NCBI GenBank assembly: GCA_024401745.1
Contig: JAKSKK010000019.1
Coordinates: forward strand, 1 to 38,503
DNA: 38,503 nt
Source: Bacteroidales bacterium
GTDB taxonomy: Bacteria > Bacteroidota > Bacteroidia > Bacteroidales > UBA932
Reading direction: 5' to 3'
Shown here: positions 3,853-21,784 of the stretch, in pieces
How positions within the stretch are numbered: the stretch's first letter is position 1
Layout of the letters: the number at the start of each line of letters is the position of its first letter
Notes under the pieces: model-generated
Databases searched by the model: none
Told to the model about the DNA's origin: nothing
Seen by the model: the letters and a program-made list of their open reading frames with translations, nothing else
Made by a program: the position numbers and the translations under genes

Positions 3853-4583
3853 ATTATGTCCTCCTTGCTGAATACGGGGCCGTCGGTGCAGATTCGCTTG
3901 GGTCCTTTGGTGGTATGGCAGGTGCAGCCGTAGCAGATTCCGCAGCCGCAGCCCATCCTCTCTTCAAGACTGGCCTCTCCCTGGCCCTCCAGGGTCTCAC
4001 AGACGGACTTCATCATCACTTTGGGGCCGCAGGTATAGAAGTGGTCATACTGTGGCTTCACGGCCGAAATAGCGTCCGTTACGAGGCCTTTGACTCCGCG
4101 GCTGCCGTCCATGGTGGCAATGACCACCTGGGCGCCGAGTGCGCGGTACTCGTTTTCGAGCACTACCTCGCATTCGCGGTTGAATCCGAGCACTACGGTG
4201 ACTTCCTTGCCTTCTGCGCGAAGGTCCTTCACGAGTGTGAAGGCGGGGCTTGCGCCTACTCCGCCGCAGACAACGAGGGCTGCCTTGCGGGTGAGGGTAG
4301 AGTCGAAGCCGTTGCCGAGTCCGGTGAGAACGTCGAGCACGGTGTCGGGCTGCATTGCGCTCATCTCGTCGGTGCCGGCGCCCACGACCTTGTAGATCAT
4401 GTCGAAGCCTTTCTCGTCCCAGCAGGTGGCGGCGATGGGGCGGCGGAGGAACCTGCCGGCAATTGCCACGTCGACGAACTGGCCGCCGCGGCAGAGCTCG
4501 GTGGTGTCACCAAGCAGGCGCATGCGCCAGGTCTTGTCGGCCACGCAGACGTTGCTCCCGATAGTATAAAGACTCTGTTTCAT
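3846..4583 (-). CDS. pyrK: Dihydroorotate dehydrogenase electron-transfer subunit
   Basis: This is the FAD and [2Fe-2S] protein that couples PyrD to NAD+. An N-terminal ferredoxin-reductase-like flavin domain (RRPI flavin motif) is followed by an NAD-binding half with CGGVGASPAFTLVK, and a C-terminal cysteine cluster (CGCGICYGCTCH and a later Cys) supplies the iron-sulfur ligands. I start it at ATG 4583, which shares one base with the carB stop codon (TGATG); an in-frame TTG just upstream is less likely. The protein is 245 residues, normal for the family. Confidence 0.94.
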   Translation of the reverse strand: MKQSLYTIGSNVCVADKTWRMRLLGDTTELCRGGQFVDVAIAGRFLRRPIAATCWDEKGFDMIYKVVGAGTDEMSAMQPDTVLDVLTGLGNGFDSTLTRKAALVVCGGVGASPAFTLVKDLRAEGKEVTVVLGFNRECEVVLENEYRALGAQVVIATMDGSRGVKGLVTDAISAVKPQYDHFYTCGPKVMMKSVCETLEGQGEASLEERMGCGCGICYGCTCHTTKGPKRICTDGPVFSKEDIIW

Positions 4584-7500
4584 CAATGATTGTACTCTTC
4601 GTCGATGGTGGATATTCCGAGGGTGATCTCCTCCAGGACGTCAAGCAGTACGCGTACGGTCTCCAGGGAGGTGAAGATGGTCACGTTGTTCTCCACAGCG
4701 GCGCGGCGTATGCCGTAGCCGTCGAGGCGGGTGCTGTGCTGGTTGATGTCGATGGTGTTGATGACGTAGCTCACGTGTCCCTGGCGCAGGGCGCTCACGA
4801 TGTCGCCGGAACCTTCGCTGATCTTGTGAAGGGTCCTGGTGCGTATGCCGTTCTGCTTCAGGAAAGCTGCCGTTCCGCTGGTGGCCTCGATGTTGAATCC
4901 GAGGTTGTAGAAGCGGCGGATCAGGGGGAGTGCCTCGTCCTTGTCCTTGTCGGCGATGGTAGCGAATACGGTACCGTAGTTGACCACGTGCACGCCTGAT
5001 GCCTGCAGCGACTTGTACAGTGCGCGGTTGAGCGAGTCGTCGTATCCGATGGCCTCGCCGGTCGACTTCATTTCAGGTGAGAGGTATGTGTCGATGCCCT
5101 TGAGCTTGCCGAACGAGAAGGCGGGTGTCTTCACATAGTGGCGGTGGCGCTCAGGGTAGTAGGTTTCGGTGATTCCGAGCTCGGGAAGGCTCTTGCCGAG
5201 CATCACGAGAGTGGCGATCTTTGCCATGGGGATGCCCGTCGACTTCGACAGGAAGGGCACGGTGCGTGATGAGCGGGGGTTGACCTCGATGACGTATACG
5301 TCCTCGTTCTTGTCGACGATGTACTGGATGTTGAAGAGGCCCACGATGCCTATCTCGAGTCCGAGCTTCATGGTGTAGTCGATTATCTGGTCCTTGACCT
5401 TCTGGCTGAGCGAGAAGGAAGGATATACCGAGATGGAGTCGCCTGAGTGGATACCGGTGCGCTCCACGTGCTCCATGATGCCGGGGATGAATACGTTCTT
5501 GCCGTCGCAGATGGCGTCGACCTCGCTCTCCTTACCCATGATGTACTTGTCCACTAGCACGGGGGACTTCTCGTTGATTTCCACTGCGTTATGCAGGTAG
5601 TGGCGGAGTGCTTCCTCGTTGCCGACTATCATCATGGCGCGGCCTCCGAGCACGAATGACGGACGCACGAGCACGGGGTAGCCGATCTCCTCGGCGGCCT
5701 TGACGCCTTCCTCGACGTCAGTCACTGCCTTAGCCTTGGGCTGGGGGATTCCAGTCTTGCGCATGATGGCCTCGAAGAGCTTGCGGTCCTCGGCGTTGTC
5801 GATGGCCTCGATCTGGGTGCCGATGATGGGCACGCCGAACTCAGCCACGGGGCCTGCCAGGTTGATGGCGGTCTGGCCTCCGAGAGTGACTATCACGCCT
5901 TCGGGCTTCTCCAACTCGATCACGTTCATCACGTCCTCGACGGTGAGGGGCTCGAAGTAGAGCTTGTCGGAAATGGTATAGTCGGTCGATACGGTCTCGG
6001 GGTTGTTGTTGATGATGATGGCTTCGTAGCCGGCCTCCCTGATGGCCCAGATCGCGTGTACGGTAGAGTAGTCGAACTCCACGCCCTGGCCGATTCTGAT
6101 CGGGCCTGCGCCCAGCACGAGTATCTTCTTGCGGTCAGATACGATAGACTCGTTCTCCTGGCCGTAGGTAGAGTAGAAGTATGGCACGTCGGCGTCATGC
6201 TCGGCAGCGCAGCTGTCGATGAACTTATATACGGGGCGTATGCCATTCTGCCAGCGGAACTCTATCATCTCTTTCTCGCTGCGTCCCCACAGCTGGCCTA
6301 TGAACTTGTCGCTGAAGCCGTAGAACTTGGCCTGCCTGAGAAGCTCGACGTCGAACTTGTTCTCCTTGAGGGCGTTTTCCATCTTCACGATGTTGGCGAG
6401 CTTCTCGAGGAAGAGCATGTCGATCTTGGTGCAGTCGTAGATCAGGCGCACGTCAACGCCGTTGCGTATGAGCTGTGCGATTCCGAGGATATGGTCGTCG
6501 GGGAACTTCACGATGTAGTTGAAGATCTCCTCGTCAGTCATGAGCTCGAACTTCTTCTTCCAGACGTGGCTGCAGCCTATCTCAAGCGAGCGTATGGCCT
6601 TGAGGAAGCTCTCCTCGAAGTTGCGGCCTATGCTCATCACCTCGCCGGTCGCCTTCATCTGGGTGCCGAGCTCGTTGCTGGCCTCGCTGAACTTGTCGAA
6701 GGGGAAGCGGGGAACCTTGGTGACTATGTAGTCGATGGAGGGCTCGCAGCATGCGGGTGCGTTGGCCACTGTAATCTCGTCGAGTGTGAGGCCCACTGCT
6801 ATCTTGGCTGTCACGCGTGCGATAGGGAAGCCGCTGGCCTTCGATGCCAGTGCCGAAGACCTTGACACGCGGGGATTGACCTCGATTATGTAGTAGTTGA
6901 ACGACAGCGGGTCAAGGGCGAACTGCACGTTGCAGCCACCTTCTATCTTGAGGGCGCGGATGAGCTTGAGGGCGCTCTCGCGCAGGATCTCGTACTCCTT
7001 GTCGGCAAGGGTCTGGGCGGGAGCAACCACGATCGAGTCGCCGGTGTGGATGCCCACAGGGTCAACGTTCTCCATCGAGCAGATGGTGATGGCGGTGTCG
7101 TTCTTGTCTCGCATGACCTCGAACTCTATCTCCTTGTAGCCCTTCACGCTCTTCTCGATGAGCACCTGGTGCACGGGGGAGAGGGCAAGCGCGTTGCGCA
7201 TCATCTCCACGAGCTGCTCCTCGTTATCGGCGAATCCGCCGCCTGTTCCGCCGAGGGTGAAGGCGGGCCTGAGTACTACAGGGTAGCCGATCTTGTTCGC
7301 GGTGGCCATTGCATCCTCCACGCTGTAGCAGATGTCGGAGGGGATGACGGGCTCGCCGAGGCTGATGCACAGCTCCTTGAAGAGCTCGCGGTCCTCAGCC
7401 TGCTCGATGCTGTGGAACGAGGTTCCGAGAATCTCCACGTGGCACTCGTCGAGCACACCCTTGCGGGCGAGCTTCACTGCCAGGTTGAGTCCGGTCTGGC

Positions 7501-7774
7501 CGCCGAGGCCGGGAACTATAGCGTCGGGGCGCTCGTAGCGTATGATCTTTGCAACGTATTCAAGGTCAAGGGGTTCCATATATACCTTGTCGGCAATATG
7601 GGTGTCGGTCATGATGGTGGCGGGGTTGGAATTGACCAGCACCACTTCGTATCCTTCCTCCTTGAGGGCAAGGCATGCCTGTGTACCTGCGTAGTCGAAT
7701 TCTGCGGCCTGGCCGATCACGATGGGGCCGGAGCCTATAACCATTACTTTCTTTATGTCAGTTCTTCTGGGCAT
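4583..7774 (-). CDS. carB: Carbamoyl-phosphate synthase large subunit
   Basis: It makes carbamoyl phosphate from bicarbonate, two ATP and ammonia delivered by CarA. At 1063 residues it has the full family length: two homologous ATP-grasp halves, each opening with a glycine-rich segment ([18 protein letters not shown] near residue 12, and [17 protein letters not shown] in the second half), an oligomerisation region between them and a C-terminal methylglyoxal-synthase-like allosteric domain. The ATP-grasp EVNPR motif appears in both halves. It lies 3 bp after carA and abuts pyrK. It could use free ammonia directly, which matters because CarA has a changed triad. Confidence 0.97.
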
Positions 7775-7777
7775 GGC

Positions 7778-8845
7778 TTAGTCCTCCATATCTTTAATGA
7801 ATTTGTCAAAGAAATCAGTGTCCTCGGGGCCGGGGCAGCCCTCGGGATAGAACTGCACTGCGTTCACCTTGTCGGCAGGGCAGCAGATGCCTTCGATGCA
7901 GTCGTCGGCAACGTCGCGATAGGTCACGGTAAGGCCTGTGCCTTCGAGCGAGATGGGGTCGATCGCGAAGTTGTGGTTGTGCTCGGTGGTGATGATGCGG
8001 CCTGTCTCCATGTTGCGTACGGGGTGCCCGCCGTGGTGGCCGGATGCCATCCTGTAGCTCTTGGCTCCGTAAGCAAGGGCGATGATCTGCTGGCCGAGGC
8101 AGATGCCGTAGATGGGCAGCTTGCCGCGGAGTTCGTTCACCAGGGCTATGATGCCGGGAAGGCGCTCAGGGTCGCCGGGACCGTTAGATATGAGTATGCC
8201 GTCAGGGTTGAAGGCGAGAATGTCCTGCACGGGGGTGTCGAAGGGGACGACGGTCACGTTGCATCCTCTGCGGTTGAGCGCAGACACGATGCTGTGCTTC
8301 ATTCCACAGTCGATTATGACTACGTCGTAGGTGTGGTGAGGAGTGCGTGAGAACCATCTCTTCGCGCAGCTTACCTGAGGCACGGCGTTGGTGCTTACGG
8401 GAGTGAGCGAGATGAGCTTCAGGGCGTCGGCCAGAGGCATGCTCTCATCGACGATGGCGGCGCGCACTGCACCCTTGCCGCGTATGATCCTGGTGATCAT
8501 GCGGGTGTCGAGGCCGCTGAGGCAGGGGACACCCCTTTCCTCAAGCTCCTCTGAGAGGGTCTTGGTGTAGCGGAAGTTCGAGGGCGTGTCGCAGCATTCG
8601 CCGACCACAAGGCCTGCGATTCCTGTAGCGCGTGACTCGAAATCCTCTGCCGTGATTCCGTACTGGCCTATAAGAGGGTAGGTCATTACCACAATCTGTC
8701 CTGCGTATGCCGGGTCAGAGAGAATCTCCTGATATCCCACCATAGAGGTATTGAAAACTATTTCCCCGACGGCCGGTGCCTGCGCTCCCTGACAGAGTCC
8801 GCAGAATTCCTGACCGCTTTCCAGGACAAGCTTCATCTTCTTCAT
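7778..8845 (-). CDS. carA: Carbamoyl-phosphate synthase small (glutaminase) subunit
   Basis: This class I amidotransferase subunit hydrolyses glutamine to feed ammonia to CarB. The oxyanion segment ISNGPGDPE (219-227) and the nucleophile C249 in GICLGQQ are present. The usual VQFHPE motif, which supplies the triad His and Glu, reads VQFYPE here, so the His is Y333 while E335 remains. The usual CLGHQ also reads CLGQQ. The length is 355 residues, normal. It is the first gene of the pyr operon, preceded by a leader with a terminator 19 nt before the ATG. An AAGG stands about 10 nt before the start. Function as the CarB partner is secure; glutaminase activity is doubtful. Confidence 0.94.
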   Translation of the reverse strand: MKKMKLVLESGQEFCGLCQGAQAPAVGEIVFNTSMVGYQEILSDPAYAGQIVVMTYPLIGQYGITAEDFESRATGIAGLVVGECCDTPSNFRYTKTLSEELEERGVPCLSGLDTRMITRIIRGKGAVRAAIVDESMPLADALKLISLTPVSTNAVPQVSCAKRWFSRTPHHTYDVVIIDCGMKHSIVSALNRRGCNVTVVPFDTPVQDILAFNPDGILISNGPGDPERLPGIIALVNELRGKLPIYGICLGQQIIALAYGAKSYRMASGHHGGHPVRNMETGRIITTEHNHNFAIDPISLEGTGLTVTYRDVADDCIEGICCPADKVNAVQFYPEGCPGPEDTDFFDKFIKDMED

Positions 8846-8996: not shown

Positions 8997-9026
8997 CAAA
9001 TATAGCAATTTTGATTTTTCTGCAAC
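8997..9026 (-). promoter_or_regulatory. Promoter of the pyr operon
   Basis: On the minus strand TATATTTG (9004-8997) matches the Bacteroidota -7 consensus TAnnTTTG perfectly. A TTG inside GTTG (9026-9023) lies 18 bp upstream as a plausible -33 element. The predicted transcript start near 8991 precedes the leader peptide ATG by about 15 nt. Confidence 0.65.
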
Positions 9027-9056
9027 ATTTAATTTTCAAATTTGCCAATAGAATCG

Positions 9057-9064
9057 TAAATTTG
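9057..9064 (+). promoter_or_regulatory. -7 element of the purine operon promoter
   Basis: TAAATTTG (9057-9064) is a perfect TAnnTTTG box, 24 bp before the first pur ATG. The -33 element is poor (TTTT at 9033-9036, 20 bp upstream). The box is only about 50 bp from the oppositely directed pyr -7 box. Confidence 0.55.
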
Positions 9065-9088
9065 TGTCGCAATTTTAAAACCCTATAT

Positions 9089-9775
9089 ATGGAACTCCTT
9101 TACACAGGCAAAACCAAAAACGTGTACGCTCTTGAAAGCGGCAACTATCTTCTTAAGTTCAAGGACGACTGCACCGGCAAGGACGGTGTCTTCGATCCCG
9201 GTGAGAATTCTGTAGGACTTACAATCGAGGGCGTCGGCGACGTCAACCTCCGCATGTCCATCTACTTCTTTGAGAAAATCAACGCTGCAGGTATCAGAAC
9301 ACACTTCGTAAGCGCTGATCTCGCCAACACCACAATGGAGGTTCTCCCCGCCAAGGTATTCGGCAAGGGCCTTGAGGTCATCTGCCGCAACAAGGCTGTG
9401 GGCAGCTTCATCCGTCGCTACGGCGAGTATATCGAGGCAGGAGCAGATCTTCCTTCTTATGTAGAGACCACATTCAAGAACGACGAGAAAGGAGATCCTC
9501 TCGTTACAAAGGACGCACTCGTATGCCTCGGCGTCATGACAGCCGAGCAGTATGATGCAATCAAGGCCCAGACCCAGCAGATCACCAAGATCGTTGCTGA
9601 CGACCTCGCTGAGAAAGGCCTCGTCCTCTACGACATCAAGTTCGAGTTCGGTTACGATCCTCAGGGCAACGTAATGCTCATCGACGAGATCGCATCCGGC
9701 AACATGCGTGTCTACAAGGACGGCGAGTACATCGATCCTATGACTCTTTCAAAACTTTTCTTTGCTCAGAAGTAA
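9089..9775 (+). CDS. purC: SAICAR synthetase paralogue 1
   Basis: This is a member of the phosphoribosylaminoimidazole-succinocarboxamide synthase family, which joins CAIR and aspartate with ATP. I start at ATG 9089 ([13 protein letters not shown]), because the lysine-rich N-terminal strand is conserved there and the promoter box lies just upstream; a longer frame from 9011 would run through the promoter. The protein is 228 residues. Motifs [11 protein letters not shown] and LYDIKFEFG are present, but the second signature reads [14 protein letters not shown] rather than the usual DExxPDxxR. This subtype is known from Firmicutes. A second purC lies 4.4 kb downstream in the same operon. Confidence 0.88.
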
Positions 9776-9778
9776 GTC

Positions 9779-10246
9779 ATGAAAGTTGGTGTCATAATGG
9801 GGTCGACAAGTGACTTGGAAGTCATGTCGGCAGCCTTCGGCGTTCTTGAAAGTTTCGGAGTAGAATACGAAAAGAAAGTCATAAGCGCACATCGCGCTCC
9901 CTATCTGCTTGCTGAGTACGCATCCACTGCACGCGAACGCGGCCTGGCCGCCATCATCGCAGGTGCAGGCGGTGCCGCACACCTCGCAGGCGTGACTGCA
10001 GCATATACCACCATCCCCGTTATCGGTGTGCCTATCAACGGCAAGGCCTTCGGCGGTATGGACGCACTCCTCGCCACAGTGCAGATGCCTTCCGGCATCC
10101 CCGTGGCCACAGTCGCAGTGAACGGTGCAAAGAACGCAGCCCTGCTTGCCGTCTCCATCCTCTCGGTGACCGACAAGGACCTGGAGCAGAAACTCGCCGC
10201 CTTCCGTGCAGAGCAGACCCAGAAGATCGAAAACACGCAAATCTAA
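9779..10246 (+). CDS. purE: N5-CAIR mutase, class I PurE
   Basis: It converts N5-carboxyaminoimidazole ribotide to CAIR. The 155-residue length, the GSTSDLEVM phosphate loop near residue 9, the SAHRAP motif near residue 40 and the glycine-rich [11 protein letters not shown] segment identify class I PurE, which normally works with the ATP-dependent PurK. No purK is in the window. It follows purC1 by 3 bp and precedes purL by 5 bp. Confidence 0.95.
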
Positions 10247-10251
10247 TCGTG

Positions 10252-13200
10252 ATGAACAATACAACCCGAATTTTTGTTGAGAAAAATCGCGGATTCCGGG
10301 TAGAGGCGGAAAGCTTGCGCAGCGAGCTTTCCGAGAACCTCTCGTTGAATATCCGCTCCCTAAGACTCCTGAATGTGTATGACCTTGCAGGATTCAGCGC
10401 CGAGCTGCTGGAGAAATGCAGGTACGCCGTCTTCGGCGAAACCGTGACCGATACGGTCTACGACGAATTCCCGCTCGAAGGGAAGAAATACCTCGCGGTG
10501 GAATACATCCCCGGCCAGTTCGACCAGCGCGCTTCTTCAGCGGTAGACTGCGTGCACCTCATAGACCCTAACGCAGACGTCCAGATCCGCTCATCAAGGC
10601 TCCTTGTCTTTGACGACGAAATGTCGGATGATGCCCTCGCGGCCATCCGGCATTATTATATTAATGCGGTAGAGTCACGCGAGAAGGACCTCTCGAAGCT
10701 CAGCCTTTCTGACAAGGCCGACGTGAAGCCTCTGGCCGACCTTAGCGGTTTCACCGCCATGCCAGAGGAAGAGTTCGCAGGATTCTGCAAGCAGTGGGGC
10801 CTCGCCATGAACACCGACGACCTCCGCGAAGTGGTGAACTACTTCAAGGCCGAGCACCGCGATCCTACCGAGACCGAGCTCCGCATCCTCGACACCTACT
10901 GGAGCGACCACTGCCGTCACACCACCTTCACCACAGAACTTACTGAAATCAAGATAGACGACTCATTCCTGAAGGAGGAACTCGAGTCCGAGCTTGGCGA
11001 GTTCCACGCAATACGCAAGGAGCTCGGCCGCGAGGGCAAGAGCCTCTGCCTCATGGAACTGGCCACCATCGGTGCCAGGTGCCTGCGCAAGCGCGGCCTG
11101 CTGGACGACATGGAAGTCAGCGAGGAGAACAACGCCTGCAGCATCTTCATCGATGTTGATGTTGACGGCCAGCAGGAGAAATGGCTCCTCCAGTTCAAGA
11201 ACGAGACGCACAACCATCCTACCGAGATCGAGCCTTTCGGCGGTGCAGCCACCTGTCTTGGCGGCGCAATCCGCGACCCTCTTTCCGGCAGGTCATACAT
11301 CTATCAGGCAATGCGCGTGACGGGCGCTGCCGACATCTGCAAGCCCGTAAGCGAGACCATCCCCGGCAAGCTGCCCCAGAAGGTCATCACCCGCAAGGCT
11401 GCCGCCGGCTACTCAAGCTACGGCAACCAGATCGGCCTTGCAACCACTCACGTGCGTGAGATCTACCATCCGGGATACGTTGCCAAGCGCCTTGAAGTAG
11501 GTGCCGTCGTAGGTGCCGTGAAGGCTGAGAACGTACGCCGCGAGAGCCCCGCTCCCGGCGACGTGATCCTCCTGCTCGGAGGCCGTACCGGCCGCGACGG
11601 AATCGGCGGAGCCACAGGCTCTTCAAAGGAGCATACTGAAGCATCGCTTGAGACCTGCGGAAGCGAGGTCCAGAAGGGTAACGCACCCGAGGAGCGCAAG
11701 CTCCAGAGGCTCTTCCGCCGCCCTGAGGTGACCAAGCTCATCAAGAAATCCAACGACTTCGGTGCCGGCGGCGTGAGCGTCGCAATCGGCGAACTTGCCG
11801 ACGGTCTTGACATATACCTCGACCGCGTTCCCACCAAGTACAGCGGACTGAACTCCACCGAACTTGCAATCAGCGAGTCTCAGGAGCGTATGGCTGTGGT
11901 TGTGGAAGCCGAGGACCGCGAGGCATTCGAGTCGTTCTGCAACAGCGAGAACGTCGAGGTCACATACGTGGCCGACGTCACAGATACAGCGCGCATGCGC
12001 ATGTACAATGGAGAGGTGAAGGTCTGCGACCTCACCCGCGCATTCATCGACAGCGCAGGTGCCAAGCACTACAGCAAAGCCTGCATCCAGGCAGTCGAGG
12101 ACATCGATCCATTCAGGCGCGAACCTGCAGGCGAGACCGTCTCCGACAAGCTCTGCAGCGTGCTCTCATCAGAGAACGTGGCATCGCAGAAGGGCCTCAT
12201 CGAGATGTTCGACTCCACGATCGGCCGCTCTACCGTGCTGATGCCTTTCGGCGGCACCATGCAGAGCACCGAGACCCAGGTTTCAGTGCAGAAGCTCCCG
12301 ACCGACGGATATACCGACACCGCCAGCATGATGGCTTTCGGCTACAACCCTGAGATCAGCAGCTGGAGCCCTTACCACGGTGCCGCATACTCAGTTATCG
12401 AGGCCTGCACGAAGGTCGTCGCAGCCGGCGGCGAGTGGTCAGGAATGCGCTTCTCTTACCAGGAGTACTTCGAGCGCATGACCCACGACCCTCACAGCTG
12501 GGGCAAGCCTCTCAGCGCACTTCTCGGTGCCCTGAAGATGCAGATCGCCCTTGGCCTGCCTTCGATCGGAGGCAAGGATTCCATGAGCGGCACATTCGAG
12601 GACAAGAATGTTCCTCCTACCCTCATCGCCTTCGGAATCACCCCTGTGAAGGCCTCCAAGGTCATTTCTACCGAATTCAAGTGGGAGGGCAACAAGCTCT
12701 ACCTCATCAAGCATACCCCTCTGGCCAACCGCATGCCTGACACAGAGCAGCTCAAGGCCAACTGGGATTTCGTACACAGCCAGATCGAGGCCGGAAACAT
12801 AGTCTCAGGCTGGTCGCTCGGCTTCGGCGGTCTTGCAGAAGGCCTCGCCAAGATGTGCTTCGGCAACGGCTTCGGCGCACGCGTCAAGGTCGATGAAGAC
12901 GAACTCTACCGCCTCTCATACGGCTCTATCCTCGTCGAGTCCGAGACCGAGCTCGATTACGAGAACGCCATCTACCTCGGCGAAGTCACCGACGGCGAAG
13001 ATGACAAGCTCCGCATCAACGGTTCGCGCATTTCCCTTACCAAACTTCAGGAAGCATGGACGAAGCGCTATAGCAAAGTTTACCCAACCTCGGCTGAAGC
13101 CGAGTTTGGCAAAACTTTTGACGGGGGTTCTACCCCCGTAACGCCCCCCGGCAGCCATACGGCTGCTGAACTGCTAGCGAGCGGTAGCTGCCAGCAGGGA

Positions 13201-14124
13201 GAACCTGCTGGGGAATGTGCCACCCTCGGCGCCATAAGAGGGGGGACCATGCAGCGAAGCGGAATGGTGGGGTCGGCGACAGCCGACGTCCCCAGCGGGT
13301 TGCTCCCTGCTGGCCAAAGCAAACCGCTTGCTTATCTCCCGGTATTCCCTGGAACGAACTGCGACTACGACACTGCGAAGGCATTCCGCAAGGCCGGCGC
13401 AGACGTCCGCTTCGGCGTCTTCTGCAACCTCACCGCCCAGGACGTTCTCGACTCCATCGCCCGCATGCGCAAAGACATCTCCGAGTGCCAGATACTCATG
13501 CTCTCAGGCGGCTTCTCATCAGGCGACGAGCCCGACGGCAGCGGCAAGTTCATTGCCAACGTGCTGAACAACAAGGAAATAGCCGACGAGATACACAAGC
13601 TTCTCGATCGCGGCGGCCTCATACTCGGAATCTGCAACGGCTTCCAGGCACTCGTGAAGAGCGGCCTCCTGCCTTACGGAAGGCTCGGCTGCGTGACCAA
13701 GGATTCACCCACACTCTTCCGCAACGACATCAACCGCCACATCTCCCAGATGGTCACCACCCGTGTGGCAACCACCAAGTCACCCTGGCTCGCCGGCATG
13801 AGCGAAGGCGACCTGCACACCATTGCAGTCAGCCACGGCGAAGGCAAGTTCGTGGTCAACGAAGAGCTCGCAAAGGAACTCTTTGCCAACGGACAGGTAG
13901 CGTTCCAGTATGTGGATCCCGTGAGCGAGGAGCCCACCATGGAATCACCCTACAACCCCAACGGCTCATACTACGCAATCGAAGGAATCATCAGCCCCGA
14001 CGGACACATCCTCGGCAAGATGGGACATACCGAGCGCTACGAGCAGGGCAACTTCAAGAACATCCCTGAAGAGATGTACCAGCCCCTGTTCGACAATGCA
14101 GTCAAATACTTTACACAGAAATAG
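10252..14124 (+). CDS. purL: Formylglycinamidine ribonucleotide synthase, single chain
   Basis: It converts FGAR, glutamine and ATP to FGAM. The single 1290-residue chain has an N-terminal PurS-like domain, two AIRS-like halves (residues about 200-930) and a C-terminal class I glutaminase domain with GICNGFQAL, SHGEGKF and HTER, so Cys, His and Glu are intact. I start at ATG 10252, although an in-frame GTG precedes it. Related Bacteroidota proteins are, from memory, about 1230 residues. The extra length lies between residues about 945 and 1025, in the linker before the glutaminase strand LPVFPGTNCDYD. That stretch is coded by a run of inverted repeats with a low-complexity Gly/Ser/Ala/Pro translation, described separately. 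Confidence 0.96.
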   Translation: MNNTTRIFVEKNRGFRVEAESLRSELSENLSLNIRSLRLLNVYDLAGFSAELLEKCRYAVFGETVTDTVYDEFPLEGKKYLAVEYIPGQFDQRASSAVDCVHLIDPNADVQIRSSRLLVFDDEMSDDALAAIRHYYINAVESREKDLSKLSLSDKADVKPLADLSGFTAMPEEEFAGFCKQWGLAMNTDDLREVVNYFKAEHRDPTETELRILDTYWSDHCRHTTFTTELTEIKIDDSFLKEELESELGEFHAIRKELGREGKSLCLMELATIGARCLRKRGLLDDMEVSEENNACSIFIDVDVDGQQEKWLLQFKNETHNHPTEIEPFGGAATCLGGAIRDPLSGRSYIYQAMRVTGAADICKPVSETIPGKLPQKVITRKAAAGYSSYGNQIGLATTHVREIYHPGYVAKRLEVGAVVGAVKAENVRRESPAPGDVILLLGGRTGRDGIGGATGSSKEHTEASLETCGSEVQKGNAPEERKLQRLFRRPEVTKLIKKSNDFGAGGVSVAIGELADGLDIYLDRVPTKYSGLNSTELAISESQERMAVVVEAEDREAFESFCNSENVEVTYVADVTDTARMRMYNGEVKVCDLTRAFIDSAGAKHYSKACIQAVEDIDPFRREPAGETVSDKLCSVLSSENVASQKGLIEMFDSTIGRSTVLMPFGGTMQSTETQVSVQKLPTDGYTDTASMMAFGYNPEISSWSPYHGAAYSVIEACTKVVAAGGEWSGMRFSYQEYFERMTHDPHSWGKPLSALLGALKMQIALGLPSIGGKDSMSGTFEDKNVPPTLIAFGITPVKASKVISTEFKWEGNKLYLIKHTPLANRMPDTEQLKANWDFVHSQIEAGNIVSGWSLGFGGLAEGLAKMCFGNGFGARVKVDEDELYRLSYGSILVESETELDYENAIYLGEVTDGEDDKLRINGSRISLTKLQEAWTKRYSKVYPTSAEAEFGKTFDGGSTPVTPPGSHTAAELLASGSCQQGEPAGECATLGAIRGGTMQRSGMVGSATADVPSGLLPAGQSKPLAYLPVFPGTNCDYDTAKAFRKAGADVRFGVFCNLTAQDVLDSIARMRKDISECQILMLSGGFSSGDEPDGSGKFIANVLNNKEIADEIHKLLDRGGLILGICNGFQALVKSGLLPYGRLGCVTKDSPTLFRNDINRHISQMVTTRVATTKSPWLAGMSEGDLHTIAVSHGEGKFVVNEELAKELFANGQVAFQYVDPVSEEPTMESPYNPNGSYYAIEGIISPDGHILGKMGHTERYEQGNFKNIPEEMYQPLFDNAVKYFTQK
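13075..13328 (+). repeat. In-frame palindromic repeat insertion in purL
   Basis: Consecutive hairpins fill the segment: AAAGTTT 13075-13081 with AAACTTT 13112-13118 enclosing CTCGGC/GCCGAG; ACGGGGG/CCCCCGT 13121-13139; GCAGCC/GGCTGC 13151-13166; CCAGCAGG/CCTGCTGG 13191-13211; ACCAT/ATGGT 13246-13268; GTCGGC/GCCGAC 13272-13287 with GGGG/CCCC outside it; and AGCGGGTTGCT 13294-13304 with AGCAAACCGCT 13318-13328. The frame stays open through all of it. It encodes a low-complexity linker of about 80 residues where about 20-25 are usual. Ordered words shared with 245-475 suggest both are copies of one repeat family, comparable in behaviour to the palindromic elements found inside Rickettsia genes. 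Confidence 0.7.
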
Positions 14125-14126
14125 GC

Positions 14127-14846
14127 ATGGCAGCAGGTGAACTTATTTACGACGGAAAGGAAAAGAAAGTCTATTCCACCGAAGATCCTGATGTAGTGCT
14201 TATCCACTACAACGACCTTGTAACTGCCTTCGGCGGTATCAAGAGGGCCGTGATCAAGGGCAAGGGCGTGTGCAACAACAACATAAGTGCAGTCACTTTC
14301 CAGGCCCTGCACGATGCAGGCGTCCCCAACCACTTCATCAGGAAAGTCAACGACCGCGACATGCTCTGCCGCAAGATCGAGATAATCCCTCTGCAGGTGA
14401 TTGTCCGTAACCGTCTTGCCGGCACCACCGCAAGGCTTCTCGGCCTTGCCAACGGCACGAGGATTCCCAACACGGTCTACGAGCTGCGCTACAACTGCGA
14501 CGCGCTTTCCGATCCCATGATCAACGAGCACCATGCAGTCGCACTCGGCCTTCTGACCTACGAGGAGATAGACTACGTGCTCGGCCTCGCCCGCAAGGCG
14601 AACGCCGCGCTCATCGAACTCTTCCACAAGGCAGGCATCGAACTGATCGACTTCAAGATGGAGGTCGGTCGCACCAGCGACGGTCAGATCATCGTGTCTG
14701 ACGAGATCAGCCCCGACAACGCCCGCCTCTGGGACGAGAAGACCGGAGCCGTACTCGACAAGGACCGTTTCCGTCACGACCTCAGTGACGTGACCGCCAA
14801 CTACAGGGAAGTACAGGAGAGATTAAATGCAGTCATCAAGTTATGA
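14127..14846 (+). CDS. purC: SAICAR synthetase paralogue 2, canonical
   Basis: It has the same reaction assignment as the first operon gene but is the canonical bacterial form: 239 residues, IVRNRLAG in the middle, IDFKMEVG and DEISPDNARLWD near the C-terminus, all matching SAICAR synthase signatures. It follows purL by 2 bp, and its stop overlaps the purF start by 4 nt (ATGA). It is only distantly similar to the first copy, so this is not a recent tandem duplication. This copy is the safer candidate for the classical activity. Confidence 0.94.
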   Translation: MAAGELIYDGKEKKVYSTEDPDVVLIHYNDLVTAFGGIKRAVIKGKGVCNNNISAVTFQALHDAGVPNHFIRKVNDRDMLCRKIEIIPLQVIVRNRLAGTTARLLGLANGTRIPNTVYELRYNCDALSDPMINEHHAVALGLLTYEEIDYVLGLARKANAALIELFHKAGIELIDFKMEVGRTSDGQIIVSDEISPDNARLWDEKTGAVLDKDRFRHDLSDVTANYREVQERLNAVIKL

Positions 14847-16207
14847 GCATATTCGGAGTTTATGGCGTGCATAACGCCGCACAGATGATATATCTCGGCC
14901 TCCATGCCCTCCAGCACAGAGGACAGGAAGGTGCCGGAATAGCAACTTTCGACAAAGAAGGCCGCTGCACTCATCACCGTGGGCTCGGCCTGGCATCGGA
15001 GATCTTCGATACCGACACCCTGTCAAAGCACGATGACGCTCTTCTCGGCCTCGGCAGCACCCAGTATGCAAACAAGGCCAAGGGCGGTCTCGACAACGTC
15101 CAGCCCCTGTTCTTCCATCACAAGTCAGGCGACTTCGTGATAGCGGGCGAGGGCAACCTCATCAACGCCGAGCGTATTGCCAGCTATCTTGAGGACCGCG
15201 GCTGCATCTTCCATACTGCAACCGACGCCGAGATTCTCGCGAACCTCATAAAGAAGGACAACAGCGAGGACCGTATCACCCGTATAATCGACTGCCTGAA
15301 CATGATGGAGGGCGGTTTCGCATTCGCCATCATGACCAAGAACCGCCTGTACGCCATGCGAGACAAGTACGGCATCAAGCCGCTTGCAATCGCGAAGCTC
15401 GGCGACGGCTGGGTGATAAGCAGCGAGACCTGCGCCTTCGACCTCGTGGGTGCACAGTACATACGCGACATCGAGCCCGGTGAGGTGGTCACCGTCGATC
15501 ATCACGGCCTGCGCTCCAACAGATATTCACAGTTCCAGAAGCACAAGGTCTGCTCGATGGAGTACTTCTACATCGCGCGTCCCGACTCCGACATCGACGG
15601 CCGCAACGTGCATGCCTTCCGCAAGGAGGTGGGCCGCAAGCTGGCAGAGGAGTGCCCATGCGATGCCGACATAGTTGTGGGTGTTCCTGACTCAGGCCTC
15701 AGCGCCGCCATCGGATACGCCGAGCGCAGCGGAATCCCTTACGAGATAGGTCTCATCAAGAACAGATACATCGCCCGTACCTTCATACAGCCCAGCCAGG
15801 AGATGCGTGAGAGGGGAGTGCAGATGAAGCTCTCTGCCGTACGCAGCATAGTTGCAGGCAAGCGCCTTGTGCTGGTCGACGACTCAATCGTCCGCGGTAC
15901 GACATGCCTCAAGATCGTGAAGCTCCTGCGTGCCGCCGGTGCCAAGGAAGTGCACGTGCGCATCGGCAGCCCCATGATGAAATATCCCTGCTACTATGGT
16001 GTGGACACTTCTACTTCAGAAGAACTTCTGTGCTCAAGCAGAAGTCTGGAAGAGGCTTGTAAAATGATTGAGGCTGACTCACTTGGATATGTATCATGCA
16101 AGGCGTCCGTCGAGGCTGCAAAGGGCTGCTCGGAGCTTTGCCTCGCCTGCTTCAACGGCGAATATCCCACATCACTTTATCAACACGGAAAAGACTCAGA
16201 AGAATAA
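14843..16207 (+). CDS. purF: Amidophosphoribosyltransferase-like protein with degenerate glutaminase
   Basis: PurF makes phosphoribosylamine from PRPP and glutamine-derived ammonia. The phosphoribosyltransferase half is intact ([12 protein letters not shown] at 343-354; [14 protein letters not shown] loop), as are four cysteines matching the B. subtilis [4Fe-4S] ligands (C237, C383, C433, C436). The glutaminase half is not: the chain begins MSIFGVYG, with no Cys after Met where the family has CGxxG; the GHxRYxT motif reads GSTQYAN (71-77), losing the glutamine-binding Arg; and HNGNL reads GEGNL (102-106), losing the oxyanion Asn. D128 is kept. No other start is possible, because upstream codons contain no ATG, GTG or TTG before an in-frame TGA at 14792. 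The length is 454 residues. It probably uses ammonia. Confidence 0.92.
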
Positions 16208-16208
16208 T

Positions 16209-17240
16209 ATGGCCAAGACTTACGAAAATGCAGGTGTAAACCTGGAAGCCGGCTACGAGGTAGTAAGCCGCATCAAGAAGCACGTAGCTTCGACTGTACG
16301 CCCCGGTTCAATGGGCGGAATCGGTTCATTCGGAGGAATGTTCGATCTCTCTTCACTCGGCATCCGCGAGCCGGTTCTGGTCAGCGGCACTGACGGTGTG
16401 GGCACAAAGCTCAAGATCGCCTTTGCAATGGACAAGCACGACACCGTGGGTATCGACGCAGTCGCAATGTGCGTCAACGACGTGCTCGCACAGGGTGCCG
16501 AGCCCCTCATCTTCCTCGACTACGTTGCAGTGGGACACAACATTCCCGCACAGGTCGAGGCCATAGTTGCAGGTGTTGCTGAAGGCTGCCGCCAGGCAGG
16601 CTGTGCTCTTGTGGGCGGTGAGACCGCCGAGATGCCCGGCATGTATCAGGACGGCGAGTACGACATCGCAGGCTACACTACAGGCGTCGTCGAGAAGTCC
16701 AAGCTCATCGATGGCAGCAAGGTGAAGGCAGGCGACGTGCTGGTAGGTATCGCATCCACCGGCGTGCACTCCAACGGATTCAGCCTCGTGCGCAAGATCG
16801 TTGCCGATGCAGGCCTCGAGTTCACCGACGAGATTCCCGAGTTCGGCGGCCGTCGTCTCGGCGACGTCCTCCTTACTCCTACACGCATATATGTGAAGCA
16901 GGTGCTTGACGTGATCCGCAACTGCGACGTCCACGGCGTGGCACACATCACCGGAGGCGGCTTCGACGAGAACATTCCCCGCGTCCTCCACGAGGGCCAG
17001 GGCCTCGAGATCTTCGAGGGCAGCTGGGAGATCCTTCCCGTATTCAAGATGCTCGAGAAGTGGGGCGGCGTGCCTCACCGCGAGATGTTCAACATCTTCA
17101 ACATGGGCATAGGAATGGTCGTGGTTCTTGACGAGTCAGAGGCCGACAAGGCAATCGAGATCCTCCGCAGCCACGGCGAGACCGCTACCGTCATCGGCAA
17201 GGTCACCGACAAGGAAGGCGTAAACATCCATCTCCTGTGA
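16209..17240 (+). CDS. purM: AIR synthetase (FGAM cyclo-ligase)
   Basis: It closes the imidazole ring of FGAM with ATP to give AIR. The ATG at 16209 ([16 protein letters not shown]) is chosen because family members begin here and it lies 1 bp after the purF stop. The 343 residues include [25 protein letters not shown], split here as [11 protein letters not shown] and [12 protein letters not shown], plus GGETAEMPG and [13 protein letters not shown], all conserved. The stop codon overlaps the purN start by one base (TGATG). Confidence 0.96.
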
Positions 17241-17803
17241 TGAAGAAGCTGGCTGTCTTCGCATCCGGAAACGGAAGCAACTACGAAGCGATAGCCGCTG
17301 CATGTGCAGGTGGCGTGCTGGACGCCGAGGTGGCCGTGCTGGTCTGTGACCATACCGACGCCTACGCAATCCAGCGTGCCGCGAAGTTCGGCACACCCGT
17401 GTTCACATTCTGCCCGAAGAACTATGCTTCAAAGGCTGAATACGAAGCCGAGATAGTCTCCCTGCTTGACAGCAAGGGCATCGACCTTGTGTGCCTTGCA
17501 GGCTATATGAGGATAATCGGCGACGTGCTCCTGAAGGCATACAGCGGCAAGATAATAAACATCCATCCTTCTCTCCTCCCTGCATTCAGGGGAGCGCACG
17601 CAGTCGAGCAGGCTGTGGCCTATGGCGTCAAGGTTTACGGCATCACCATCCACTGGGTGGACGAGAGCCTCGACGGCGGCCGCATCATCGCGCAGCGTGC
17701 ATTCGAATACGATGGCAACGACCCTGAGGAAGTTCATCGCCTGGGGCAGGTCATCGAGCACAAGTTATACGTAGAAACCATAAACAATCTTATAAATGAG
17801 TAA
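17240..17803 (+). CDS. purN: GAR formyltransferase, 10-formyl-THF dependent
   Basis: It formylates glycinamide ribonucleotide using 10-formyltetrahydrofolate. The 187 residues start at ATG 17240, in preference to a GTG one codon upstream. The catalytic segment INIHPSLLPAFRG and the later HWVDESLDGG, containing the active-site Asn, His and Asp, are intact. It overlaps purH by 8 nt. The operon also encodes the formate-using enzyme PurT, so there are two routes for the same step. Confidence 0.95.
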   Translation: MKKLAVFASGNGSNYEAIAAACAGGVLDAEVAVLVCDHTDAYAIQRAAKFGTPVFTFCPKNYASKAEYEAEIVSLLDSKGIDLVCLAGYMRIIGDVLLKAYSGKIINIHPSLLPAFRGAHAVEQAVAYGVKVYGITIHWVDESLDGGRIIAQRAFEYDGNDPEEVHRLGQVIEHKLYVETINNLINE

Positions 17804-19331
17804 AAGAGCGTTAGTAAGTGTAAGCGATAAGACCGGACTCGTCGATTTTGTCAAGGGCCTTCAGAGTGAAGGTTGGGAAATCATTGCAACAGGAGGAACC
17901 CAGAAGCTCCTCGAGCAGAGCGGTGTCAAGACCATAGGCATCAGCGAGGTCACAGGATTCCCTGAGATCTGCGACGGCCGCGTCAAGACCCTCCACCCCA
18001 AGGTGCACGGCGGCATCCTTGCGCGCAGGGATATCCCTGAGCACATGGCCACCCTCAAGGAGAACGGAATCCAGACCATCGAACTGGTCTGCGTGAACCT
18101 CTATCCTTTCAAGCAGACCATCGCGAAGCCCGATGTGACCATGGAAGATGCAATCGAGAACATCGACATAGGTGGCCCCAGCATGGTCCGCAGTGCAGCC
18201 AAGAACTGGAAGGATGTCACCATCGTGTGCGATCCCAACGACTATGGCACAGTCCTCGACGAGATCCGTGCAAACGGTTTCACCTCCGATGAGACCCGTC
18301 TCAAGCTCAGCGCCAAGGCATACACCCACACCGCAGAGTATGACATGATGATCGCCACCTACATGCGTGACAAGGCAGGACTTAACGAGAAGCTCTTCCT
18401 CGAGTACGACCTCAAGCAGGGCCTCCGCTATGGCGAGAACCCTCACCAGAGCGCCAAGTTCTTCGCTGCCCTCGAGCCCGCATCCTTCTCTCTCGCATTC
18501 GCCGAGCAGATTCAGGGCAAGGAGCTCTCTTACAATAACATCCAGGATGCCAACGCTGCTCTCAACGTGGTACGCGACTTCGAGGAGCCCTTCTGCGTCG
18601 CCCTCAAGCACATGAATCCCTGCGGAGCTGCAGTCGCAGCAACAATCGAGGAGGCTTGGCAGGCTGCATACGAGGCCGACAAGGTCAGCATCTACGGCGG
18701 CATCGTTGCAGTGAACCGCACTCTCACCAAGGAGGTCGCTCTCGGAATGAAGCCCATCTTCCTTGAGATCGTCATCGCTCCCGACTACACTCCCGAGGCA
18801 CTCGAGATCCTCTCTGCAAAGAAGAATCTCCGCGTGATGAAGGTCGACATGACCCGCAGCGCAGCTCCCGTTCCTCAGTTCATCAGCGTGAACGGTGGCA
18901 TGCTCGCTCAGCAGCTCGACACCCAGATCGAGAAGATCACTCCCGAAATGTGCGTCACCGAGGTCAAGCCCACTGAGGCTCAGATGGTCGACCTCGACTT
19001 CGGCTGGAAGATCGTTAAGCACGTGAAGTCCAATGCCATCGCAGTTGTAAAGGACGGCCATACCATCGGTGTGGGCGCAGGCCAGACCAACCGCGTAGGC
19101 TCTGCCGAGATTGCTCTCGAAGAGGCAAAGGCAGCAGGATTCACCGAAGGCATAGTCCTCGCATCCGACGGCTTCCTTCCTTTCGGCGACACCGTTGAGC
19201 TCGCATCACGCTATGGCGTGACAGCAATCGTGCAGCCCGGCGGCAGCATCCGCGACGAGGAATCCATCCAGAAGGCAAACGATCTTGGCATCACCATGCT
19301 CTTCACAGGCGTACGTCACTTCAAACATTAG
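17796..19331 (+). CDS. purH: AICAR formyltransferase / IMP cyclohydrolase
   Basis: This bifunctional enzyme carries out the last two steps to IMP. The N-terminal methylglyoxal-synthase-like IMP cyclohydrolase domain (about residues 1-190, SVSDKTGLVDF, TLHPKVHGG) is followed by the AICAR transformylase domain with RYGENPHQ and the catalytic Lys-His in ALKHMNPCG. The 511-residue length is typical. Its start lies inside the end of purN, indicating coupled translation, and it is followed by purT after 12 bp. Confidence 0.97.
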   Translation: MSKRALVSVSDKTGLVDFVKGLQSEGWEIIATGGTQKLLEQSGVKTIGISEVTGFPEICDGRVKTLHPKVHGGILARRDIPEHMATLKENGIQTIELVCVNLYPFKQTIAKPDVTMEDAIENIDIGGPSMVRSAAKNWKDVTIVCDPNDYGTVLDEIRANGFTSDETRLKLSAKAYTHTAEYDMMIATYMRDKAGLNEKLFLEYDLKQGLRYGENPHQSAKFFAALEPASFSLAFAEQIQGKELSYNNIQDANAALNVVRDFEEPFCVALKHMNPCGAAVAATIEEAWQAAYEADKVSIYGGIVAVNRTLTKEVALGMKPIFLEIVIAPDYTPEALEILSAKKNLRVMKVDMTRSAAPVPQFISVNGGMLAQQLDTQIEKITPEMCVTEVKPTEAQMVDLDFGWKIVKHVKSNAIAVVKDGHTIGVGAGQTNRVGSAEIALEEAKAAGFTEGIVLASDGFLPFGDTVELASRYGVTAIVQPGGSIRDEESIQKANDLGITMLFTGVRHFKH

Positions 19332-19343
19332 AATATCCAGAAC

Positions 19344-20534
19344 ATGACAAAGATAGGAACACCCCTCAGCCCGGTTGCAAAGAAGGCTCTCCTCCTTGGT
19401 TCCGGTGAACTTGGAAAAGAGGTTACCATAGAACTCCAGCGCTTCGGTGTGGAAGTGGTTGCATGCGACCGCTACGCCAACGCTCCCGCCATGCAGGTGG
19501 CTCACCGCAGCCACGTTTTCTCAATGCTCGACGGCGAGAAGCTCCGCGAGGTCATCGAGACTGAGAAGCCCGACATCATCATCCCTGAGGTCGAGGCCAT
19601 CGCAACACCCGTACTTGTGCAGCTCGAGAAGGAAGGCTACAACGTCATTCCTACCGCAAAGGCAGCATTCCTCACCATGAACCGTGAGGGCATACGCCGC
19701 CTTGCAGCCGAGGAACTCGGCCTTCCCACCTCATTCTACCGCTTTGCCGACAACTACGAAGAGTTCAAGGCTGCTGTCGAAGAAGTAGGCATACCATGCG
19801 TGGTAAAGCCCGTCATGAGCTCTTCAGGCCATGGCCAGAGCACTGTCAAGTGCCAGGAAGACGTCGACAAGGCATGGAACAACGCCCAGTCAGGCGGCCG
19901 TGCAGGTGCCGGCAGAGTAATCGTCGAGCGCTTCGTCGACTTCGACTATGAGATCACCCTTCTCACCGTGCGTCATTGCGGCGGCACAACCTGCCTTGAG
20001 CCCGTAGGTCACCATCAGGTTGACGGCGACTACCGCGAGAGCTGGCAGCCTCAGCCCATGAGCCCTGTTGCACTCCAGCAGGCACGTGAGTACGCACGCA
20101 AGATCACCGGCGCTCTTGGCGGATACGGTATCTTCGGCGTCGAGATGTTCATAAAAGGCGACGAGGTCATCTTCAGCGAGGTTTCACCCCGCCCGCACGA
20201 CACCGGTATGGTCACAATGATCTCTCAGGACATGTCAGAGTTCGCGCTTCACGCTCGTGCAGTGCTCGGCCTTCCCATCCCTGAAATCAAGTTCTACGGC
20301 GCCAGCGCATCCAAGGCCATCGTGATCGAGGGCGACACTGACAAAGTGGAGTTCTACGACATCGACAAGGTGCTCGAGGAGCCCGGCGTGCAGATGCGTC
20401 TCTTTGGTAAGCCCGAGGTTGTCGGCCATCGCCGCTATGGCGTGATCCTCGCCACCGACGAGACTGTCGAGAAGGCTCTCGCCAAGGCAGAGCGCGCATA
20501 TAAGAAATTAGGAGTCAATATTTTACCTAGATAG
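19344..20534 (+). CDS. purT: GAR formyltransferase 2, formate dependent
   Basis: This ATP-grasp enzyme formylates glycinamide ribonucleotide with free formate and ATP through formyl phosphate. The 396 residues begin with a [14 protein letters not shown] nucleotide-fold segment near residue 18, then the ATP-grasp core with [14 protein letters not shown] and a C-terminal metal site [15 protein letters not shown]. Length and motifs match E. coli PurT closely. Having it beside purN gives independence from folate-bound formyl groups, useful where formate is plentiful. Confidence 0.96.
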
Positions 20535-20536
20535 TT

Positions 20537-21784
20537 ATGAAAGTATTGGTAGTCGGCGGTGGCGGCCGTGAACATGCCATAGTTGATGCAATCAGCCGCA
20601 GCCCGCGCTGTCCGCAGATATTCTGTGCTCCCGGCAATGCCGGCATAGCAGAGCAGGCCACCTGCGTTGCCATCAAGGACACTGACGTTCAAGGTTTGCT
20701 TGATTTCGCACTTACCGAGGGCATCGACCTCACGGTCGTAGGCCCCGAGGCTGCGCTTTCAGTAGGCATAGTCGATGCCTTCCGTGCCGCCGGCCTCAGG
20801 ATCTTCGGACATACCAAGTCTGCAACCCGTATCGAGAGCAGCAAGGAGTTCGCCAAGATCCTGATGGAGAAGTACGACATTCCCACTGCCGGCTACAAGT
20901 CTTTCACAAGCTACGCGGAGGCTCTGGCGTATGTGAGCCTTCGTCCTTTCCCTGCAGTCCTCAAGTATGACGGACTCGCCGCTGGCAAGGGCGTTGTGAT
21001 TGCCCAGAACCTCGAGGAGGCCGCTGCCGCTCTGAAGGACATGCTGATAGGCGAGGCTTTCGGCAAGGGCAAGGTGGTCATCGAGGACTATCTCGAGGGC
21101 CCCGAGTTCTCGTTCATGGCCTTCGTCGATGGCTACAACGTGTATCCAATGCCTCTGGCTCAGGACCACAAGCGCGCCTTCGACGGCGACAAGGGCCCGA
21201 ACACAGGCGGCATGGGAGCATATACCGGCCTGCCTTTCATCAACGATGAGGACGTCGCTTTCGCATACGAGAAGATACTCAAGCGCACTGCATACGCAAT
21301 GGTCAGCGAAGGCTGCCCGCTTTCAGGCGTGCTGTACGGCGGACTCATGAAGACTCCCCAGGGAATCAAGGTCATAGAGTTCAACGCCCGCTTCGGCGAC
21401 CCTGAGACCGAGGTTGTCCTGCCTCTGCTCGACTCTGACGCATGCGACATCTTCGCATCAGTTGCATGCGGCAACGACCCTCAGCCCCTTGTATGGTCAG
21501 ACGACATCACCATGGGTGTCGTGATGGCTTCAAAGGGTTATCCCGGCTCATACAGCAAGGGCTTCGAGATCGACTGCTCCGAGGCAGGCGAGCGCATCTT
21601 CCACATGGGTACCGCCATCAAGGACGGCAAGCTCGTCACCAACGGCGGCCGTGTGCTCATGACAGTCGCACGTGCGGCTACCGTTGCCGAGGCAAAGGAA
21701 AAGGCCTACGCAGCCGTCCACGCAATCAAGTGCGACAATCTTTTCTACCGATCGGACATCGCCCACTGGGCATTGGATAAATAG
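20537..21784 (+). CDS. purD: Phosphoribosylamine-glycine ligase
   Basis: It joins phosphoribosylamine and glycine with ATP to give GAR, the step after PurF. The 415-residue ATP-grasp protein shows VGGGGREHAI at the N-terminus, GLAAGKGV in the ATP-binding region and NARFGDPETEVVLP near the metal site. It starts 2 bp after purT and ends 6 bp before the glycoside hydrolase gene. No purA, purB or purK is seen, so the last CAIR and AMP steps are encoded elsewhere. Confidence 0.97.
   Translation: MKVLVVGGGGREHAIVDAISRSPRCPQIFCAPGNAGIAEQATCVAIKDTDVQGLLDFALTEGIDLTVVGPEAALSVGIVDAFRAAGLRIFGHTKSATRIESSKEFAKILMEKYDIPTAGYKSFTSYAEALAYVSLRPFPAVLKYDGLAAGKGVVIAQNLEEAAAALKDMLIGEAFGKGKVVIEDYLEGPEFSFMAFVDGYNVYPMPLAQDHKRAFDGDKGPNTGGMGAYTGLPFINDEDVAFAYEKILKRTAYAMVSEGCPLSGVLYGGLMKTPQGIKVIEFNARFGDPETEVVLPLLDSDACDIFASVACGNDPQPLVWSDDITMGVVMASKGYPGSYSKGFEIDCSEAGERIFHMGTAIKDGKLVTNGGRVLMTVARAATVAEAKEKAYAAVHAIKCDNLFYRSDIAHWALDK

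Follow-up and report, generated by a model that had tools for sequence, protein, structure and literature searches.

How does a PurF work once the site that feeds it has gone? PurF is the textbook case of ammonia channelling from glutamine: its N-terminal Cys is the nucleophile, an Arg binds glutamine and an Asn forms the oxyanion hole. A gene in the window (the whole 38,503-nucleotide stretch of Bacteroidales DNA analysed here) encodes a PurF in which these residues are replaced and the phosphoribosyltransferase half is intact. We refer to it as Cys-less PurF (CLF); it and its diagnostic motifs lie as follows.

14843..16207, plus strand: CLF open reading frame, 454 aa, from ATG (14843) to TAA (16207), PurF by profile and predicted fold
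14843..14857, plus strand: MSIFG, the start Met standing at the place of catalytic Cys1 in the alignment with B. subtilis PurF 1ao0
15053..15073, plus strand: GSTQYAN replacing GHVRYxT (GHVRYAT in B. subtilis), with His and Arg lost and Thr changed to Asn
15146..15160, plus strand: GEGNL replacing HNGNL, the oxyanion Asn changed to an acid
15551..15553, plus strand: Cys237 (B. subtilis Cys236), first of four conserved cysteines
15869..15904, plus strand: PRPP loop, intact and also kept in relatives
15989, 16139 and 16148, plus strand: the remaining cysteines, Cys383, Cys433 and Cys436, respectively

The window CLF scores 444.9 bits against the TIGR01134 purF profile (cut-off 350), and its nearest solved structure is B. 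subtilis PurF (1ao0), to which it is 50% identical over the structural alignment. Its predicted model (mean pLDDT 81, pTM 0.67, low-confidence stretches at 303-317 and 445-454) matches 1ao0 with a TM of 0.78, and the N-terminal half of the model retains the Ntn glutaminase fold (GlmS glutaminase domain 1xff, TMt 0.83). CLF shares its length, domain order, PRPP loop, flexible loop and purine operon with the B. subtilis and E. coli enzymes, and the Fe-S cysteines are of the B. subtilis type, aligning with residues 236, 382, 437 and 440, which we take to be the Fe-S ligands. The alignment with 1ao0 bears out what the first-pass annotation had read at the glutaminase site, namely an MSIFG start with no Cys at position 2, GSTQYAN for GHxRYxT and GEGNL for HNGNL: the start Met pairs with Cys1, Gln74 stands at the glutamine-binding Arg and Glu103 at the oxyanion Asn. 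The PRPP motif and four cysteines that it had called conserved are likewise intact in the window and kept in relatives. Profile, fold, synthase motifs and operon all identify CLF as a PurF, yet one that lacks the defining residues of class II (Ntn) amidotransferases: the N-terminal Cys nucleophile is absent from the window protein and from all 90 Cys-less rows described below, and the glutamine-binding Arg and oxyanion Asn are both missing from the window CLF.

We gathered 194 distinct PurF-like sequences. Without two that had no N-terminus and eight MGGFFG-type paralogues, they comprise 90 CLF rows (window included) and 94 canonical rows, numbered here as in B. subtilis. The homologues with the same losses, whose collection had been proposed in the first-pass annotation, form a single clade nested among canonical PurFs (SH-aLRT 100, from a quick tree search with SH-aLRT as its support measure). 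Unlike the B. subtilis and E. coli enzymes, no CLF row has Cys1, His70 or Asn102 (0/90 each) and only 8/90 have Arg72, which is lost in the other 82, whereas each of the four residues is found in 94/94 canonical rows. The former oxyanion position is always acidic (Asp in 47/90, Glu in 43/90), Thr75 has become Asn in 87/90, and the PRPP-loop and Fe-S columns are retained bar a few gapped rows. On the tree, site 102 changed three times, always between Asp and Glu, against 14 and 13 changes at the flanking sites 101 and 104; with changes so few and so restricted compared with its neighbours, the acid looks selected rather than drifting. In CLF, the glutaminase half has a median dN/dS of 0.217 and the synthase half one of 0.080 (765 close, non-independent pairs), as against 0.058 and 0.052 in canonical Rikenellaceae (94 non-independent pairs) and 0.303 and 0.218 in the other canonical rows (46 non-independent pairs), a pattern that marks the CLF glutaminase half as relaxed relative to the synthase half, but not free. 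The earlier statement that this is not a decaying gene thus holds, given one conserved clade, a canonical operon slot and, for either half, a median dN/dS well below 1.

The start codon (ATG in 89/90 rows, GTG in 1/90) sits exactly at Cys1 in 90/90 Cys-less rows, that is, where B. subtilis and E. coli PurF have their nucleophile, so that the Cys-less state is neither chance nor a reading error; a sequencing error hiding an MCG start, or a wrong start, is thereby ruled out. An upstream alternative start codon is present in 4/90 rows. For the window itself, the first-pass annotation was right that no ATG, GTG or TTG intervenes between the in-frame stop and 14843, but misplaced the stop, which is the TGA at 14786-14788 rather than at 14792, with 18 codons between. 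An in-frame upstream Cys (TGC at 14828, in the purC overlap) was considered and rejected, as it is not conserved across the Cys-less rows; any Cys within 12 codons upstream occurs in 7/90, in unlike contexts.

CLF carriers are mostly uncultured gut bacteria, Candidatus Cryptobacteroides and kin, the nearest named relative being Candidatus Cryptobacteroides choladohippi (L031; 92% identical), and samples from the rumen, omasum, abomasum or faeces of horses and ruminants feature in the titles of many further records. CLF, read as Cys-less, is also found in three genomes of the window's family outside its genus (G254, G275, G211); the G211 copy duplicated another sequence and was left out of the rows. 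The MGGFFG/MSGFFG-type PurF-like paralogue of Bacteroidales (L023-L030) shares the absence of Cys1 but is only ~27-34% identical to CLF, lacks the segment that carries Arg72 and Tyr73 and forms a separate clade; it was not found in any of the 25 genomes tested. Among the open-access literature matches listed, there is no report of a Cys-less PurF clade. As a separate observation, five of the 94 canonical PurFs (L014, L015, L016, L018, L322) keep Cys1 and Arg72 and carry Thr75 to Asn, His101 to Asn and Asn104 to Gln; four of the five read GHVRYSN and NNGQI, and L322 is grouped with them by the tree. Judged by these residues, they may perhaps represent a half-way state of the glutamine site.

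In the window, CLF is embedded in a complete purine operon, with the following neighbours.

9779..10246, plus strand: purE (TIGR01162)
10249..14124, plus strand: purL (Pfam GATase_5 and FGAR-AT_linker), glutaminase triad intact (GICNGFQ, GHTER)
14127..14846, plus strand: purC (TIGR00081, 200.7 bits)
16209..17240, plus strand: purM (TIGR00878; 16215-17237 searched)
17237..17803, plus strand: purN, named from its translation
17796..19331, plus strand: purH, named from its translation
19344..20534, plus strand: purT (PurT_C and ATP-grasp)
20537..21784, plus strand: purD (TIGR00877)

At the purC stop and the CLF start the two genes share 4 bases (ATGA), and CLF fills the same slot as the canonical PurF of relatives (purE-L-C-[F]-M-N-H). 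Gene order in L031 is identical to that of the window: carB, carA, purC2, purE, purL, purC, purF, purM, purN, purH, purT, purD. Nine of the 18 loci from genomes in which CLF is the only PurF found (CLF-only genomes, see below) were fetched at length: purE, L, C, F, M, H and D stand together in 9/9 and purN in 8/9, and no extra recurring gene was seen among the nameable genes of these nine operons.

The genus sample comprised 150 genomes, all at least 80% complete except the window's own (72%), and CLF is present in 46 of them, the Cys-less state being read from sequence for all 46. A complete second PurF, for which the first-pass annotation had advised a search, is found in 28 of the 46 and not in the other 18. 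In 19 of the CLF genomes there is a B. subtilis-type PurF as well, its Cys1 visible in 18/19 (the copy of G022 is a fragment that does not show it), and nine hold a long PurF ('L', LKH.CG), with Cys1 in 9/9; the two kinds occur together in 0/46 (hypergeometric P 0.004). We also considered the long PurF as a degraded kind and rejected this, since 9/9 copies in CLF genomes keep Cys and GHLRYST; its HNGN reads GNFN in the eight where found, so its glutaminase activity is presumed. For the remaining 18/46 genomes, the window's own included, no other PurF was found with query proteins and the family profile. The check combined four query proteins with the TIGR01134-type profile (the profile run on the 18, one protein search on 25 genomes), which speaks against a second PurF missed through a weak query: exactly one match per CLF-only genome exceeds the profile cut-off, and it is CLF (18/18). 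Six further matches are only partial, with far lower scores, and four of the six are GlmS with its own MCGI start. Eight of the 18 genomes are at least 95% complete and at most 5% contaminated; as many-contig drafts, probably mostly MAGs, the genomes nonetheless never make an absence certain. Evidence for absence is weak in the window's own genome, as it is 72% complete and a near relative (G183) does hold a second PurF, and nothing firm follows for its strain. Separately, in 42 of the 150 genus genomes no B. subtilis-type PurF (E <= 1e-50) and no long PurF (E <= 1e-30) was found; these may be purine auxotrophs or hold other PurFs.

Presence of a second PurF goes along with nitrogen-assimilation genes. 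GOGAT (PF01645) occurs in 0/18 CLF-only genomes versus 18/28 with CLF and a further PurF (Fisher p 6e-6, uncorrected for kinship), and AmtB (PF00909) in 0/18 versus 14/28 (Fisher p 2e-4, likewise uncorrected); a GDH-family dehydrogenase (PF00208) is present in 17/18 CLF-only genomes. GOGAT absence is not specific to the CLF-only group, as it is also missing from 10/28 CLF genomes with a second PurF and from 25/47 canonical-only genomes, a set defined by exclusion and including one fragment (G115). On the CLF tree, the second PurF was gained or lost 14 times; across 13 independent pairs, GOGAT tracks it in ~6, opposes it in none and is equal in the rest (median p 0.031), and AmtB tracks it in ~3.5 and opposes it in none (median p 0.125), so that tree-aware support for the link is modest. 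Part of the co-occurrence is linkage, because the long PurF shares a cluster with gltB, gltD and amtB. We take the full cluster, pieced together from several genomes, to hold gltB, gltD, pyrG, a PII-like gene, amtB, asnB and glmS; amtB and gltB are profile-confirmed on long-PurF contigs of some genomes (e.g. G003, G008). A P. ruminicola study of a gltBD-PII-amtB-asnB cluster was left out of the evidence because text and figure legend disagree on whether induction occurs at low or high ammonium (PMC5552732). As an observation in its own right, G149 (L228, L277) and G083 (L244, L269) carry near-identical CLFs and form a natural pair: the former is 98% complete and has CLF only, with no GOGAT or AmtB, and the latter has a long PurF, GOGAT and AmtB.

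From its position as the sole copy in full operons, we infer that CLF makes phosphoribosylamine, and we consider it probable that it does so from PRPP and free ammonia. The C-terminal half would work as in other PurFs, and the N-terminal Ntn domain would keep its fold and place but, having lost nucleophile, His, Arg and oxyanion Asn, no longer hydrolyse glutamine; it would probably serve as scaffold and ammonia entrance, and the invariant Asp or Glu at the old oxyanion position perhaps binds ammonium, which is a guess. Species with CLF as the only PurF found, having neither GOGAT nor AmtB, seem to live on plentiful ammonia, while others keep a glutamine-type PurF elsewhere too, often with GOGAT or AmtB. 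The first-pass annotation had proposed that the protein uses ammonia or receives it from another protein; this reading still fits best, with the balance now tilted towards free ammonia by the 18 genomes in which no other PurF was found, the nine operons with no extra recurring gene among the nameable ones and the lack of GOGAT and AmtB in the same 18 genomes.

There is laboratory precedent for such a state. Replacing Cys1 of E. coli PurF by Ala or Ser abolished glutamine activity and kept ammonia activity (Mei and Zalkin 1989, as cited in PMC3261824), and external NH3 has been proposed to enter the PurF channel via the glutamine site (PMC12017579). CLF fits a fixed, adapted form of this Cys1-less, ammonia-using state, with the difference that the E. 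coli mutant is a single-residue laboratory change and CLF a natural, fixed protein with a remodelled pocket. A natural PurF homologue with Ser for the active-site Cys, Mlab_0150 of Methanocorpusculum labreanum, is described as a recent extra copy beside a normal PurF that its authors suspect is not a PurF (PMC3261824); unlike CLF, it is not a clade standing alone.

The alternative that survives best, and that we still regard as unlikely, is a two-protein enzyme: CLF would be its synthase subunit, supplied with ammonia by a glutaminase made elsewhere, such as the PurL domain or an unlinked protein. The Ntn domain does remain a folded surface in the predicted model and the operon's PurL has an intact triad, but no dedicated partner gene was seen in the operons read. 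Less probable again is that CLF has given up phosphoribosylamine synthesis to act as a regulator or partner of the Cys1 PurF, or to carry out another phosphoribosyltransferase activity: the second PurF of 28/46 CLF genomes, with Cys1 in 18/19 of one kind and 9/9 of the other, would provide such a partner, yet 18 genomes have no other PurF found, CLF sits in a full pur operon in the nine that were read at length, and the synthase half is under strong constraint. Ser is a working nucleophile in other Ntn hydrolases, and the second residue of CLF is Ser or Gly, which might after Met removal sustain residual glutamine use from the N-terminus. We judge this very improbable, as that residue aligns with Gly2 rather than Cys1 and is Gly in many rows, His and the oxyanion Asn are lost in all rows and Arg in 82/90, and a Ser form of E. 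coli PurF showed no detectable glutamine-dependent activity (PMC3261824). Finally, although the window comes from one draft assembly of 72% completeness, a frameshift, wrong start or decaying gene has next to no chance as an explanation: the state recurs in 90 distinct sequences, drawn from 89 genomes or records, and dN/dS is well below 1.

The proposed ammonia-fed synthesis by CLF can be set beside the state of the glutaminases linked to it. Divergent from the pur operon lie the carbamoyl phosphate synthetase genes.

7778..8845, minus strand: carA (NF009475/TIGR01368), Cys kept, catalytic His changed to Tyr (QFYPEG)
4583..7774, minus strand: carB, named by size and place beside carA

Residue roles were assigned by alignment with the E. 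coli chain, in which we take the Tyr site to be the catalytic His, E. coli 353. We scored 35 of 38 distinct CarA copies, dropping three fragments (L124, L179, L180). Cys or His is gone in 15/15 CLF-linked CarAs examined, window included (Cys kept with His to Tyr in seven, Cys to Gly with His kept in five, other patterns in three), and in 11/11 Rikenellaceae copies, eight of which read Asp, Gln, Asp. The triad is thus broken, in several ways, in 26/26 copies linked to a pur operon (including L277, L278, L279, L281, L285 and L084-L106), whereas nine full CarAs of another kind, ~35% identical to the linked kind in the two compared, keep Cys-His-Glu. Since the Rikenellaceae pair a canonical PurF with a broken CarA, the CarA change also occurs apart from CLF. 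The PurL triad, in turn, is intact at 71/71 CLF loci and 51/51 canonical loci; as a point against the free-ammonia reading of CLF, this means that the switch to ammonia is not a general one.

Going by their active-site residues, two unrelated glutaminases, those of PurF and CarA, are dismantled side by side, and the broken CarA suggests an ammonia-dependent carbamoyl phosphate synthetase in bacteria. Vertebrate CPS I has an amidotransferase domain with an incomplete triad, has lost the catalytic Cys and uses free ammonia (PMC7657897). CLF resembles this known shift from glutamine to ammonia, except that CPS I is a different enzyme with a class I (triad) glutaminase, CLF being class II (Ntn), and that ammonia use is measured in CPS I and inferred for CLF. 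More tentatively, and with the balance somewhat against so broad a reading, these loci might form a linked ammonia-fed nucleotide module, in which PurF and CarA, the committed points of nitrogen entry into purines and into pyrimidines and arginine, lost unrelated glutaminases beside one operon while PurL kept its own; the PurF oxyanion Asn would have become an obligatory ammonium-binding acid, and, depending on how much ammonia is supplied, lineages would take up or drop a second, glutamine-type set along with GOGAT and AmtB. If CLF is indeed ammonia-fed, a natural clade without glutamine use, and often with CLF as the only PurF found, would mean that free ammonia can sustain a channel enzyme in nature, and would link the choice of nitrogen donor in gut bacteria to their ammonia economy. 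For CLF species, metabolic models built on glutamine may then be wrong, as may the label 'amidophosphoribosyltransferase', and the CLFs offer ready-made enzymes for probing the role of the conserved acid.

A few further features of the window deserve mention. Between 235 and 3754, three plus-strand open reading frames of 219-374 aa have no Pfam match at 1e-5 and are overlapped by long minus-strand frames. The operon holds two different purC genes (9011-9775 and 14127-14846), the first of which falls below the NCBIfam cut-off (122.5 versus 189.9 bits); in certain other genomes, a presumed third PurC-like gene, of ~314 aa, and a presumed purB-like gene are neighbours close to the second PurF. 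The operon also contains both a purN-like gene (17237-17803) and purT (19344-20534), that is, two routes of GAR formylation.
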